Assembly (NCBI GenBank): GCA_002238965.1
Contig: MPNJ01000006.1
Location: forward strand, 124,001-188,000
Direction of reading: 5' to 3'
Source of the DNA: Nitrospinae bacterium bin107
GTDB lineage: Bacteria; UBA8248
DNA: 64,000 nt
Made by a program: the position numbers and the translations under genes. Position 1 is the first letter of the stretch; every line of letters starts with the position of its first letter. The notes below the pieces were generated by a model. That model searched no databases. It worked only from the letters and a program-made list of their open reading frames with translations, and was not told where the DNA came from. This document shows, piece by piece, positions 42,782 to 49,513 of the stretch.

Positions 42782-42850
42782 GGGGGTGAGGAGTTTAAGT
42801 ATTTTTTAACAACTGCACCGGGCGGCATATCTATAAGCAATTCTGTGTAA

Positions 42851-43099
42851 TTGCGACCTGTCCTTGCGGGTGAGGCGAATACCAAATCGTTGTCGGAATT
42901 GATCGGCGCGTTCAAAACCACGTCATCAAAACGAATACGCGAAAACGGTTTATCCTCCTTCAAATGGCAGCGCTCGTTTTACGACCACGTCATCCGCGAC
43001 GATGAAGACATGAACCGCATCCGGGAATACATTCGGGACAATCCGGCCAGGTGGGCGCTCGATGAGGATAACCCGGTGAATGGGGTGGGGGGTGAGTGA
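42851..43099 (+). pseudogene. Remnant of a REP-associated tyrosine transposase (RAYT, IS200/Y1 family)
   Basis: The frame encodes only the C-terminal part of a Y1 transposase: LSELIGAFKTTSSKRIRE, then FKWQRSFYDHVIRDDEDMNRIREYIRDNPARW (in parts), including the conserved YDHVIR tyrosine region. The N-terminal HUH domain is missing. The left flank (42826-42870) repeats the DNA beside the palindrome at 37.76 kb, and the right flank (43085-43115) contains GGTGGGGGG and GGGGGGAGT as in the MITE. Confidence 0.75.
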
Positions 43100-43108
43100 G
43101 GGGGGAGT

Positions 43109-46100
43109 TCATTTTCTATTGAAGGGAGATCCGCTTGAAACATTAATACACAGATCCAAACCCCTTACTGCGACCAAGAGTTCTGGGTTTTCTTCCATAA
43201 TCTCGTTCGCTATTCCTTGCAGCCAAGAGACGATTTCAGTTAAGTTCATCGGCTTGCCAGTGTACGGATTTTTCCATTTTCGATGTTCTCGCATACAAAT
43301 CAGAAGACATCCTGAACGACACCGCTCGTGGCTCAGATACTGTCCCACAAGTTGATTTCTCAAAGCTTTTTCCAATTGTGAACCACTCCATCGATTACTC
43401 TTGTCGTCCAGCTTGAGTTCAATTGTGGTTTCGATATCTTTGCATGAAGATGTCAGCCTAATATCGGTGCGCTTTTCTTCTACTTTCACGGCTTCTTGAT
43501 TCACTGTATAGGCGCTACAACTATGATCGTTGAGCCAGCCGGCGATATTCCGGCGCAGTTCTGGTTCTTCTTTCACGAGTTGAAGAGTTTTTCTGTTGGA
43601 AAACTCGCTTTCCTTGACGGAATGGAAGAAATCTTCCAGACGATTAAGCATAACATTGTGGATTGTCCGATTGTCTGATGGAATCAAATTCTGTTCATTA
43701 TCAAGAGATCGGAAAACTTCGAGCAGCATCGGTGTCGGTTCGCTTTCCTTCTCAGCCACTTCTACGGCCTTTTGCCGCAGACGATCTTTCATGCCCGCGA
43801 AATTATCCATGCCGGCGAGTCGGAGTAATTTATCGTGGGTCTGTTGCCCACCCAATTCTACGAGTTGTTCAAACAATAAACTCCGCGCTCCTTCGGCATG
43901 GTCGCGAGCACCAGGAGAGTATACGCCATCGTGTCGGATATCAGATGATGGGTGAACGACTTCGAAAGCACGGATGACGAGTTGAAAAAGAATGTCCGAC
44001 CTTTTTTCGATTGGTATTGACGAGAAATTCGGTCTGCTTCCGGCATGATACCGATCCCCGAACACCGTACCGAAGATCAAAACGGCATCTGTTGCGTCGG
44101 TTTCGTCTTCAAGGTCGGTGGTTGCCTGCAGGATATGGCAACACCCATCGGCAATATCGAGTGCCATCAAGGCCCGCAACCACGCCGCCTTGTCTTCGAT
44201 GGTTAGGTCTGGCCTTTTTAGATGATGAGCCGCGTGGGATGATGCAGCTTTTACGGTGGCATCTGAACCAAAACCGGCGATCAGCCCGACAGAATATCCT
44301 AACGCATCCCGGGTTTGGTTCGTCATCTCGCACGGCCAGTTGGCGAGAGCCTTTCCCAAGAATTCGGCTGCTTCTTTCTTGATTTTATCCGTCCCGTAAA
44401 CATACAGATCATGCAGTAATGGACAATCGCCACACTCCGGCATTAGTGAGATTTGCACCGCGAGTTCTTCGATGATTACCTCGCGAACCGCTTCTGGTTT
44501 TGCTTTTTCAAGCGCAGGGAAGTACGTAGCGAAACCGTTCAATTCCAACATGGAAATTCGCGCGGCGAGTTTAGCGTCGTGCTCCGTCAGCTTATCAGCC
44601 CAATCAGGATCTTCAGCTTCGCAAGCAACCGCCATCAGAGCCTGGAGCCAGATTATTGGATAGCTGTTTCTATTTTCCGCTTCTCGTTCGCTCCGGAGTT
44701 TAGGCTGAACACCACGCCAAAACCCAGAAAGCGACGGTCTAAGAAGTTGCAAAAACTTATCGGAAAAAGCCTCGCGGATTTTCTTAGCATCCCAATAAAC
44801 CCAGTAGTTACTTGCATCTTTATCTTGGCGTAACCACTGAAATAGATTCCAAAGAGTATTTTCCTGTCTGTCATCAGCCAACATTCCTTCGGGGTCGCTC
44901 TGAATTTCCCGGCGCCATGTTTCCCAACCGGCGAGCCTCTTCTTCTCTTTCCTTTCTTGTTTCTTCTTCCATTCTTCATGTTCTTGATCATATTCGCTAG
45001 GTTGGTTTGCGGGTGGTGGATTCATGTATATTTCATATTCTTCGATGAGTTCCGGCATGTCGGAAATTCGAGAACGAACACCATCTGAAATTTCGTTATC
45101 GCCAGTCGCTCGCCAAACATCCATCAAGGCGAAGAAAGCGACAGGACGCCGATCCTCCTGCGCAGTTTCTTCCAAGGCTGTAAACAACCAAGGGATATCC
45201 GCTATCGTTATTGAACCCAAGATGCTGTCGTATCCAACCTCCTGCACATAGCGTAACCGTGGTTTTCTCGCCGGCTCTAGCTCATCCGCGAGAGACAATG
45301 ACGCCCAGAAATATGCTTCGCGTAGCCGAACATCCTCTTTGATGCGAGAGCAGATACTTTCAGTATCTTTCCTAGCAATGATGGATTGTTTCCGTTCACC
45401 GAAATGCAGCGCTATTGCGGCAGACCAAGCCCAATCCGAAATTTCCTCTAATGAGGAGATATCCGTATCACGTGCGCAGGCGGCCAGAATAGCATCGGTG
45501 AAATGATCAAATTCGGAATGACTTTCATACAGTTTGCAATCGGCTCTTCTTTTTTCCCACACTTCCTTGGAAAAAGCCTCTCGGAGCGAGCGCGCTTGGT
45601 CAATTCCGACTTCCTCACGATGAATGAGCGAATACAGTGCGAAGCCTAACCCGTGCACGGTATTTGGGGTTTCCTTGGCTTGCTTCGCGAGTGCAACAAT
45701 TTCGTCTATGCTCAAGCTCTTGGGATACAGTTCCGGGATGACTGAATAGACTAACTTTGTAGGCCATTGTTCGTTCAACAGCGCCTGACCCAACTTGCGC
45801 TTCTGCTCGAGAATTCCGGCCGCAAGAACTCCAAGACAGGCGTAGACGCGATGATAAATTGGCAGGTTCGTGTCGAACGCGGCCTCATAAGAAAGGTGCG
45901 CACAAGCAGGCAAGGGGGTAAGCCTAATTAGCTGTAACAGCAACTCACGAGTCCCATAACCCGAATACGCTTTGGACCATAATTCTTCAACGACGGGACT
46001 TAAGTCATCGTGTCCGAGCCTCGCCACGTCGTTGTAACTCACGCCGACCCCGTGAACACCATCTCCCTCGTAGGATGAGACGAAACATCGCAGAATATTT

Positions 46101-47497
46101 TCGCGAGCCACTATCGGTAACGATGCAGGCAGACCCTGCCGGAAGAGCAGTTCGGGCATTCGTTGCTTTACTTCGGCCAGGATGTACTGATTCCATAGTG
46201 CTAGCCAAGCGGCCACAGGTTCCATAGAAGGAATGACAACCCGTTCACCGAAAATATCGCGAAACAGTAGTTGCTTAACCACACTAAACGGTAGTCCTTT
46301 CGAGATGAGCTTCTTCAATCGCTTCGCTGCCAGGAATTCATGCGTGGAGCGGTGATGGAATTGTACGGTGTTGATCCCCGAAAAATCGAAAAGCCCTCGC
46401 CTGAGCAGTTCCCTTTGCTCTGGCGCTGTCCAGTCGCTCAGAATATCGCCCGCATCGAGTTGCTCGTCGTCAGGGGATGTCTTCTCTAGCGCCAGCGACC
46501 GCCGTTTCATCAGAGACAGCGCCAAGGCAAGCCTCTCCGCACCGGAGCGCGCCTTTTCTAGAGAAAGTAGCTGTTCGCCCTTTCTGTCTGGATGTTCACG
46601 AAGTTTATAGTCAATGCCGGATGAAATCTGCTCTTCCAGTGTTCCAAGTTCGCCGTTTTCCCGCATAAGGGCCATGCCGTCCATGATGTCGGCTGGTGTT
46701 TGAAAAAAATGCCATGCTTCACTTTTTTCGATTTTTTCTCTGAGTCCCTGAGCATTTTCCAAATCGTATTGATCAGCGAACTCGATTGTTTGATCCGGTG
46801 TCAACGGCAGCATCACCAGGACCCTGGGGTTGGTTTCTTCCTCGGATTGCTCGTCCCTCTTGCTCACGGACTTCGTTAGAATAATTTTATTTCGTTGTAT
46901 GGGGGCCAAAAAATCTTCTTCTTGCGGCACCTCCGGTTTTTCTGCTTTTCGCGGAGGTGGGATTGGGAAACACCGCTCGAAATCTGAACCATCGAGATAC
47001 TGGTTCCAGTCCGCAGGCCGACAGGATACGAAGATATGCGCGAAAGAGGATTTTTCACCGATGGCCTTTTGCAGCTTTCTGAGCGCAATCTTGAAACTTC
47101 CGTCGCGCAGCTTCAATTCATCAACCGAATCAAGGAAGAACCACGCTTCTTTCTCCGCTTGTTGCAGCCAGGAGGAGAGGGAATCTTCTTCCTCAGAGGT
47201 AAGTACCATCTCTATCTCGTGATCGTGAAGCTGCTCCAATGGCAGGAAAAACGCGAATTCACCCCCCTCTCTTAGGGTCTCGACTTGATGCTTGAATTCA
47301 TGCGTTTTCCCGCATTTCGCTTCTCCGAGCACGACAGTTCGCATACCGGACAGAACGTCCGACCACCCCATTGATGCAGATGTATTGTAGCTTCCCAGCC
47401 ATTCTAAGTATTCTGAATCTCTTGATTGTTTAGCTGGAGCTTCCGCGAAACTACGCTCGACGGGAATATGAACATTTTCTGGCATACTGGAAAACAT
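43109..47497 (-). CDS. NACHT/STAND NTPase with helical repeats and C-terminal PD-(D/E)XK-like nuclease
   Basis: The 1462-residue protein has Walker A GEAKCGKT (58-65), Walker B FFLDSVDEL (120-128), a sensor SCRPADW (158-164) and the winged-helix end HHRSTHEFLAAKRL (381-394). Together these define a NACHT-type STAND NTPase. Residues 400-1330 are almost all helical, solenoid-like. The last 128 residues have the D1345...E1360-L-K1362...Q1382-x4-Y pattern of RecB/Cas4-type PD-(D/E)XK nucleases. STAND proteins of this size are known antiphage sensors. The nuclease at the C-terminus is the reverse of the usual effector-first order. Base use is richer in A+T than the neighbours. Start could also be 47485. 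Confidence 0.85.
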   Translation of the reverse strand: MFSSMPENVHIPVERSFAEAPAKQSRDSEYLEWLGSYNTSASMGWSDVLSGMRTVVLGEAKCGKTHEFKHQVETLREGGEFAFFLPLEQLHDHEIEMVLTSEEEDSLSSWLQQAEKEAWFFLDSVDELKLRDGSFKIALRKLQKAIGEKSSFAHIFVSCRPADWNQYLDGSDFERCFPIPPPRKAEKPEVPQEEDFLAPIQRNKIILTKSVSKRDEQSEEETNPRVLVMLPLTPDQTIEFADQYDLENAQGLREKIEKSEAWHFFQTPADIMDGMALMRENGELGTLEEQISSGIDYKLREHPDRKGEQLLSLEKARSGAERLALALSLMKRRSLALEKTSPDDEQLDAGDILSDWTAPEQRELLRRGLFDFSGINTVQFHHRSTHEFLAAKRLKKLISKGLPFSVVKQLLFRDIFGERVVIPSMEPVAAWLALWNQYILAEVKQRMPELLFRQGLPASLPIVARENILRCFVSSYEGDGVHGVGVSYNDVARLGHDDLSPVVEELWSKAYSGYGTRELLLQLIRLTPLPACAHLSYEAAFDTNLPIYHRVYACLGVLAAGILEQKRKLGQALLNEQWPTKLVYSVIPELYPKSLSIDEIVALAKQAKETPNTVHGLGFALYSLIHREEVGIDQARSLREAFSKEVWEKRRADCKLYESHSEFDHFTDAILAACARDTDISSLEEISDWAWSAAIALHFGERKQSIIARKDTESICSRIKEDVRLREAYFWASLSLADELEPARKPRLRYVQEVGYDSILGSITIADIPWLFTALEETAQEDRRPVAFFALMDVWRATGDNEISDGVRSRISDMPELIEEYEIYMNPPPANQPSEYDQEHEEWKKKQERKEKKRLAGWETWRREIQSDPEGMLADDRQENTLWNLFQWLRQDKDASNYWVYWDAKKIREAFSDKFLQLLRPSLSGFWRGVQPKLRSEREAENRNSYPIIWLQALMAVACEAEDPDWADKLTEHDAKLAARISMLELNGFATYFPALEKAKPEAVREVIIEELAVQISLMPECGDCPLLHDLYVYGTDKIKKEAAEFLGKALANWPCEMTNQTRDALGYSVGLIAGFGSDATVKAASSHAAHHLKRPDLTIEDKAAWLRALMALDIADGCCHILQATTDLEDETDATDAVLIFGTVFGDRYHAGSRPNFSSIPIEKRSDILFQLVIRAFEVVHPSSDIRHDGVYSPGARDHAEGARSLLFEQLVELGGQQTHDKLLRLAGMDNFAGMKDRLRQKAVEVAEKESEPTPMLLEVFRSLDNEQNLIPSDNRTIHNVMLNRLEDFFHSVKESEFSNRKTLQLVKEEPELRRNIAGWLNDHSCSAYTVNQEAVKVEEKRTDIRLTSSCKDIETTIELKLDDKSNRWSGSQLEKALRNQLVGQYLSHERCRSGCLLICMREHRKWKNPYTGKPMNLTEIVSWLQGIANEIMEENPELLVAVRGLDLCINVSSGSPFNRK

Positions 47498-47762
47498 CCT
47501 ACCTAGTTTGAAAGCACACTCAAACAGGAACTCTTATAATGACCCGTAATGTGTAGCCATAAGGTGCATCATGAGCAGAATTACGCGGGCGAGATTAACT
47601 TATCGAAGAGTCTGGCGGTTCCAATTGCCAACACCTTATTTTGGAACAATACGAGAAAGTTGGCAAACATTTTGCGATATGATCTTCTATTTGTTGAGCC
47701 GGTTATCAATCTGATTCAGATCTCCGGCCAACACGGGGTAGATATCCGTTCTTCACTAGTCG
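47498..47762. other. Gene-free gap upstream of the NACHT gene
   Basis: 265 bases, A+T-rich. A TTATAA-like -10 with a poor -35 (TTATGG, 17-base spacer) may lie on the minus strand around 47530-47560, ahead of the NACHT gene. I see no gene or repeat here. Confidence 0.4.
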
Positions 47763-48020
47763 CTAATCGGACAACTTGAGTTCGAACACGCAATTGCCCG
47801 CAATTGCCGGTGGTCGCGGGAGATCGGGTCGGGAATGGCGCGCGCGGCGCGAGCAGTACTCGTCAATCGTCTCTACCCTTTGTGGCGGCATGGCGAAACC
47901 AGCGATGTCAACCTCGCGGCGGTTGCCGAATTCATCGTATTTTCCCTCCCAGACGAGTTCTGTTTTCATCTGCGAGAGCGGATGTGGATTGTGCGGTCCG
48001 AACGTAGCGGGATTGTTCAT
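47763..48020 (-). pseudogene. Remnant of a site-specific DNA (adenine) methyltransferase N-terminus
   Basis: The 85-codon frame reads HPLSQMKTELVWEGKYDEFGN and REVDIAGFAMPPQRVETIDE. This is like the extreme N-terminus of type III/orphan adenine methyltransferases (ELVWEGKYDEYGNRR-type opening). After about 60 residues the similarity stops and the frame ends, without any catalytic DPPY or FxGxG motif. It is therefore a decayed fragment, probably of a lost restriction-modification system, directly upstream of the NACHT gene. Confidence 0.5.
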
Positions 48021-48105
48021 GGGGAGTGGGTCCTCTGCCTCGTCAATGAGGGGCGTTCGTGTGGAGGTTATCACGATGCGCGTTATTGCGAAAAGAGAAC
48101 GGGCA

Positions 48106-48131
48106 GGGCGGACACATAGGTCCGCCCCTAC
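48106..48131. repeat. GTAG-type REP-like hairpin
   Basis: GGGCGGAC and GTCCGCCC form an eight-pair hairpin with loop ACATAG, followed by CCTAC (GTAG on the other strand at the stem foot). Confidence 0.55.
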
Positions 48132-48328
48132 AGAAAATCATTAATTGAATAAATGGGAATCCGAGCAGCTCGTTCGGTATTCCTCTTCACGGGGTTGTTG
48201 AAAAAAGTTCGATTTCAGGGGGTAGAGCGGGCGCCTCTCTCGTCTGGAAAAGCTGCAAACACTCGCTCTTCGGGGCTGATGAATAAGTCCTTGGTGAACG
48301 AGGATTGACTCTTCCAACGAGAGAGCAA

Positions 48329-48495
48329 TTCACTCCCCCCTTGAGGGGGAGTCGATGAAGCCAAGCGATATTTGCGAAGGCTGAATCGGTGGGGGGTAAA
48401 ATGCGTTTTACTGCCACTCCTAATCATACCCCCCACCAGTTCACTTTCGGGCTTACGCCCTCAGCTCACTGACTCCCCCTCAAGGGGGGAGTGAA
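48329..48495 (-). mobile_element. Short MITE copy with perfect 25-bp terminal inverted repeats
   Basis: The 25-base ends (48329-48353 and 48471-48495) are perfect inverted copies containing CACTCCCCCCTTGAGGGGG. The interior is the 40.4-kb core in the opposite orientation: the ten-pair GGTGGGGGGT/ACCCCCCACC (48388-48397 with 48428-48437) and GGGC-GTAA-GCCC (48449-48460, minus strand). It lacks the outer GAGAGAGAAGAACC part of the longer ends. Confidence 0.75.
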
Positions 48496-48664
48496 CTTCT
48501 AAAGTGTTCGCGCAACCCAAATTCGCTCCCCTGGGTTCGTTCAACAGCCCCATAGGCGGGCCTAAGGAAAATCCCGAATCACAAAACATAAAAGGGCGGC
48601 TCGTTCGGTCTTCACCTCCTCGGGGAAAACCGACACCCCTACAAGATCACCGGGTTCCTAAGAC

Positions 48665-48687
48665 GGGCGGCTCACGAGCCGCCCCTA
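48665..48687. repeat. GTAG-type REP-like hairpin
   Basis: GGGCGGCTC and GAGCCGCCC form a nine-pair stem with a two-base loop, followed by CTAC. Similar but weaker palindromes follow at about 48716-48772 and 48873-48897 (GGACAACC/GGTTGTCC, then CTAC). Confidence 0.55.
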
Positions 48688-48983
48688 CAATAAATCTCGA
48701 ATGAATGGAACACGAAAGGGCGGACACCTTCGGTATTCCCCTCCTCGGGGATACCGACACCTCTACGAAAAACCATAAATCGAACGAACGGAAACAACCC
48801 TGGTCGGCCTTCCGGCCGCCACCGGCGTGCACCGGAATGACGGCGTGAAAGAACCCGTGGGCGGAGAAGGCCGGACAACCACGGGGGGTTGTCCCTACGC
48901 AAACCCAACGAACGCGGACATGAAAGAAACCGGATTCCGGCAATCCCTCTTTCTGCACTCAGGTCAAACTCTCATTCATCAAT

Positions 48984-49206
48984 CGTGTTTCACCCCCCAC
49001 CGATTCAGCCTTCGCAAAATCCGCTCGGCTTCATCGTTGGGCTTTCCCCTCGGGAAGCCCGACAGTGAACTGAGGGCGTAAGCCCGAAAGTGAACTGGTG
49101 GGGGGTATAACTCGGAGTGGCGATAAAACGCGATTCACCCCCCACCGAATCGGCCTTCGCAAAAATCGCTCGGCCTCTTCGACTCCCCCTCAAGGGGGGA
49201 GTGGTT
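48984..49206 (+). mobile_element. Third MITE copy, with a partial core nested at its left
   Basis: From 49039 to 49206 the sequence follows the 40.4-kb copy closely: GGGCTT/AAGCCC hairpin, GACAGTGAACTGAGGGCGTA, the GTAA-loop hairpin (49074-49085), the GGTGGGGGGT stem and the CCCTCAAGGGGGGAGTGGTT end. The left portion (48984-49033) is instead a second partial core (CACCCCCCACCGATTCAGCC), so two copies have merged. Confidence 0.7.
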
Positions 49207-49513
49207 GTTTGGCGTTCTGCAGGGTGAGGATGGTTTAACCTGACTCCAAAGGAGTCTTTTTCAACAACCTCCTCAAGGGGAGAGTGATTTTTTCTCTCTC
49301 TTCGGTTGGCAATGATGTTCAAGCGCGAACCCTCCCTCCTCGGTCGACATCTCGCAATCGCTCCTTTATCAGTCGCGTTAATCACTCCTTTATCAGTCGC
49401 GATTAATCTCAAAGGGGGAGTGGTTTTGACACGCTCAGGCTCGGATATGGTATGATTCGCGGGTTCCGGCTGGAGTTCTACAGGCAGAATCAAACCAGGG
49501 GAGGCGTGACGCC

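Follow-up and report, generated by a model that had tools for sequence, protein, structure and literature searches.

A HyoA-like NACHT protein with a predicted C-terminal nuclease in a chromosomal defence hotspot of a Nitrospinae bacterium

Introduction

The nuclease of the antiphage proteins Avs3 and Avs4 is N-terminal. What, then, is a bacterial protein in which a NACHT NTPase comes almost first, a long helical region follows, and an apparent nuclease stands at the far C-terminus? A gene for such a protein lies in the window, the 64,000-nucleotide stretch of the genome of Nitrospinae bacterium bin107 that was analysed here. An earlier note, made by reading the DNA without database searches, had described it as a candidate antiphage protein with reversed domain order. 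We discuss below the integrity of the gene, the predicted structure of its product, its relationship to catalogued defence families and its chromosomal setting, and we weigh three other readings of its function where the evidence bears on them.

The gene and its conserved motifs

The hyoA-like gene (NACHT - helical solenoid - PD-(D/E)XK) occupies 43109..47497 on the minus strand, as do all parts of it described below, and was annotated from its open reading frame of 1462 aa and its match to the NCBIfam family NF058534. It is the single large gene previously claimed there: the frame runs unbroken through 1462 codons from ATG to stop, against a longest stop-free run of 235 codons in shuffles of the same DNA (n = 200), and a frame of its length is far beyond chance. 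The N-termini of family members suggest that the true start may be Met5 instead of Met1. The A+T-richer base use that had been remarked on is also borne out, with a G+C content of 49% in the gene vs 57.6% in the window, and a third-position G+C of 0.50 vs a mean of 0.67 (sd 0.11) in 33 long ORFs of the window.

Every motif proposed by the earlier note is present, at exactly the residue numbers given. The NTPase part has a Walker A motif, GEAKCGKT (residues 58-65; 47303..47326), a Walker B motif, FFLDSVDEL (residues 120-128; 47114..47140), the sequence SCRPADW (residues 158-164) and the winged-helix motif HHRSTHEFLAAKRL (residues 381-394). Near the C-terminus are the predicted catalytic residues D1345 (43463..43465) and E1360-L-K1362 (43412..43420), followed by Q1382-x4-Y1387 (43337..43354). 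Conservation was judged from an alignment of 72 full-length sequences, the window protein among them. All 72 keep G63, K64, T/S65, D123, D126, E127 and the sensor arginine R160 in the NTPase part, and E1311, E1335, D1345, E1360, K1362, Q1382, Y1387 and G1396 in the nuclease part; the motifs are therefore not due to chance.

Ahead of the P-loop we count about 57 residues, close to the 50 or so first estimated. The N-terminal segment (residues 1-52; 47342..47497), annotated from invariance in the 72 aligned rows and from a folded model, contains no effector domain; in the model it is largely coil, interrupted by two helices and a single short strand. R15-x-F17 and W45 in this segment are invariant across all 72 aligned relatives.

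The NACHT NTPase and the helical solenoid

The NACHT NTPase with its winged-helix region covers approximately residues 53-440 (46178..47341). The motifs and the fold match uphold the NACHT assignment; the Pfam NACHT model scores 21.9 bits (E = 1.7e-4) and does not reach its gathering score of 26.7. The Walker A, Walker B, sensor arginine and winged-helix motifs that characterize NACHT STAND proteins are all invariant or nearly so among the relatives.

Structure prediction of residues 1-1180, where the model stops (pLDDT 88.7), gave an NTPase with a long helical solenoid behind it. The top matches in a fold search with this model were the mouse egg cytoplasmic lattice, Avs4 (E = 5.2e-6), the animal receptor NLRC4 (5.6e-6) and Avs3 (8.8e-6), and HEAT-type proteins came next; Avs4 and Avs3 are the closest antiphage structures. 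Modelling thus supports the earlier assignment of residues 1-1180 to a NACHT NTPase and a helical solenoid. The solenoid, all-helical and HEAT-like, extends over approximately residues 441-1284 (43646..46177) and is presumed to be the sensor from the model, the HEAT matches and the conservation profile. The NTPase and the nuclease are highly conserved, and residues 600-850 and 1051-1100 are the least conserved; low conservation between two catalytic ends is the pattern expected for a sensor.

The C-terminal nuclease

The nuclease claimed at the C-terminus corresponds to residues 1285-1462 (43112..43645). Modelled separately, they gave a pLDDT of 89.6 and a pTM of 0.86, and the top eight PDB matches in a fold search were all PD-(D/E)XK nucleases, at modest E-values (best 3.2e-3), with McrC, FokI, PaqCI and Hjc among the best. 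The predicted fold has a restriction-endonuclease-like core carrying the invariant D, E-x-K and Q residues. The modelling supports a predicted PD-(D/E)XK nuclease at the C-terminus, behind the NACHT domain and the solenoid and about 840 residues away from the NTPase. Matches from a sequence search of the PDB, superantigen-like proteins among them (E 0.01-0.07), were discarded as chance.

The position of this domain raises the possibility that it both recognises and cuts foreign or replicating DNA, the NACHT-solenoid part merely licensing or multimerising an NTP-dependent restriction-like enzyme. Ligand recognition in Avs proteins takes place at the distal end of the solenoid, which is where the nuclease lies here, and the restriction enzymes McrC, FokI and PaqCI are among the best matches to its fold. 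We nevertheless think direct DNA recognition unlikely, given that no DNA-recognition domain is seen in the protein, that the long solenoid is least conserved in its middle, as expected for a sensor that binds protein, and that the top bacterial fold matches are Avs3 and Avs4. We favour a nuclease that would be controlled by a phage-sensing solenoid.

Relationship to HyoA, EruA and other known systems

The earlier note could match this architecture to no named system, and this did not hold. The NCBIfam model NF058534, 'NACHT domain-containing antiphage protein HyoA', aligns end to end, residues 14-1449 matching positions 2-1427 of 1430, and the domain layout is the same; EruA (NF058535) also shares it. 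Judged by sequence, the protein is already of a named kind, divergent and slightly outside the curated bounds. Its score of 1172.9 bits misses the 1200-bit equivalog cut-off by 27 bits, and because of this we file it as a divergent HyoA relative and not as a strict equivalog; its function may have drifted accordingly. As in HyoA, the NTPase and C-terminal nuclease active sites are both intact, and they are invariant in 72/72 sequences. All 11 homologues in a first alignment match NF058534. When six homologues were scored singly, five passed the cut-off (1345-1638 bits), while one from a Sulfitobacter plasmid reached 1104.7 bits, 95 bits short of it. In a tree, the window protein falls in a separate clade with 100% SH-aLRT support, together with six alpha- and gammaproteobacterial, mostly marine, proteins; a homologue from Entotheonella lies outside this clade.

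An alignment-based scan yielded 300 stretches encoding relatives in bacterial genomes; scanning genome contigs with the protein alone yielded none. Among plasmid-borne homologues, identity is 24-43% and coverage of the protein reaches 99%. The nearest relatives being in marine Proteobacteria, with plasmid homologues of up to 43% identity, sequence comparison suggests transfer, by which the gene was probably gained. A search at megablast sensitivity gave no E. coli copy of a Vibrio homologue. Relatives occur on six viral contigs only. A 38% homologue in two records named 'Acinetobacter phage MD-2021a' was rejected as a case of phage carriage, as its neighbours in one of them (L124) look chromosomal. 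These neighbours are surE, acr efflux and baeSR, and the L124 record is probably mislabelled.

EruA shares with the window protein not only the layout but also a related C-terminal nuclease; the score of 99.2 bits against a cut-off of 1000, however, places the window protein outside that family. A second gene of NACHT - solenoid - nuclease layout, of EruA type, is found on contig 40 of the same genome (L102:8384-12430), next to an AAA ATPase gene that is DUF4143-like by sequence. Its 1349-aa product scores 894.9 bits against NF058535 (cut-off 1000), in a match that spans nearly the whole length. The D, E-I-K, Q-x4-Y pattern recurs at the C-terminus of this product, and hhalign aligns that region to the nuclease profile of HyoA with 96% probability (E = 2.8e-9). 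Given these shared C-terminal motifs and profile, the NACHT - solenoid - nuclease layout is common to two catalogued antiphage families, HyoA and EruA. Further matches lie on three contigs of a sister genome (G009). The EruA met in the literature is an unrelated E. coli regulator and was set aside.

Other named systems share parts of this design. Avs3 and Avs4 (AVAST) have the STAND NTPase and long helical sensor in common with the window protein, which has neither an N-terminal effector nor a PADLOC match and is not a member. PADLOC has no model for a HyoA-like protein, and none of its families matches this one at E<=1. In bNACHT25 and bNACHT32 (clade 6), a NACHT domain is likewise combined with a PD-(D/E)XK DNase effector, but their nuclease precedes the NACHT domain whereas that of the window protein follows the solenoid (PMC12169576). 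The one specific NACHT system mentioned in DefensePredictor is that of DS-8, a NACHT-metallophosphatase (PMC13092281). The literature collection searched contained no publication on HyoA that we could find, and the antiphage label rests on NCBI curation.

The locus as a defence hotspot

The hyoA-like gene lies in a variable island (42788..49421, strand not assigned), with the gene of an ABC-transporter permease on one side and that of a cupin on the other, delimited by its flanks in sister genomes. The remnants said to flank the gene were both found. A Y1/IS200-like transposase remnant is at 42851..43099 on the plus strand (Pfam Y1_Tnp, E = 1.1e-4, just under the gathering score), and of a type III methyltransferase only the N-terminus is left, at 47763..48074 on the minus strand (MTase_III in PADLOC, E = 5.3e-21, positions 1-59 of 616). 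Short MITE-like repeats lie at 48272-49280. This genome and its sister genomes contain a great number of copies, and within the window inverted copies face one another.

The flanks of the island (the window up to 42787 and from 49422) share one contig in four genomes of the same genus, and the hyoA-like gene is absent from the corresponding site. In two of these genomes the site is empty: 707 bp separate the flanks in G004, and 597 bp in G008. The third, G006, carries a ParB-like/PD-Lambda-5_A-like gene, an unknown gene and a DNA methyltransferase (L118:2190-5483), and the fourth, G007, a type I methyltransferase with fused HSDR_N and a specificity subunit, with an unassigned 203-aa protein encoded between them (L119:2921-6997). 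In the window, the cargo is the HyoA-like gene with the methyltransferase and transposase remnants. By its predicted gene content, the site is a chromosomal defence hotspot with interchangeable cargo.

Elsewhere, the homologues are single genes, and their neighbours include TIR, type I and type III restriction, BREX-like and integrase genes. These are mobile or defence settings. The earlier note had named two findings that would refute it, homologues always in housekeeping operons and a C-terminal domain without a restriction-endonuclease fold; neither the neighbourhoods nor the model bears these out. No partner gene recurs among the neighbourhoods examined. PADLOC families numbered 327 among nearest neighbours vs 184 among distant ones, counts too coarse to speak of enrichment.

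This distribution also bears on whether the protein might be a toxin-like or plasmid-control nuclease that excludes rival plasmids and mobile elements and has no antiphage role. Many homologues are plasmid-borne, one of them within a conjugation operon. Many others, however, are on other genomic contigs, no antitoxin-like partner recurs, NF058534 is curated as antiphage, and the gene considered here occupies a chromosomal restriction-modification hotspot; we regard plasmid control as less likely still than direct DNA recognition. The surrounding repeats and remnants might suggest a decayed gene, or an ordinary housekeeping one, that plays no part in defence. This is very improbable, since the frame is intact, the catalytic residues are all kept and the gene is absent at the sister-genome site.

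Proposed mechanism

We conclude, with a probability of about 0.8, that the protein is a single-gene antiphage STAND receptor of the HyoA family, from a divergent clade, with a phage-triggered C-terminal PD-(D/E)XK nuclease. At rest, the NACHT domain would be kept inactive. Binding of a phage component to the poorly conserved solenoid would lead to NTP-driven oligomerisation, which would activate the nuclease to cut DNA and so stop the phage, probably at the cell's cost. The steps of sensing, oligomerisation and activation, the DNA target and the outcome are inferred by analogy with Avs and bNACHT proteins. In bNACHT25, an N-terminal PD-(D/E)XK domain degrades DNA once phage is sensed (PMC12169576). 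GT4 glycosyltransferase fusions provide a published precedent for STAND NTPases whose predicted effector is a C-terminal domain (PMC8195603).

Implications

The protein widens the HyoA family by a divergent clade that lies just outside its curated cut-off, and brings in a phylum that is little sampled (18 genomes available, one family). In this genus, HyoA-like, type I restriction-modification and methyltransferase cargo replace each other at one chromosomal defence hotspot. We suggest, tentatively and as a minority possibility, that HyoA- and EruA-type proteins form a class of NLR-like receptors with the effector nuclease at the sensing end of the solenoid and an activation geometry unlike the Avs tetramer. 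If so, the nuclease may, for example, contact the bound target directly, or the solenoid may fold back onto the NACHT ring. With their nuclease at the C-terminus, HyoA and EruA offer a way to study how an effector that does not adjoin the NTPase of a STAND receptor is activated by it.
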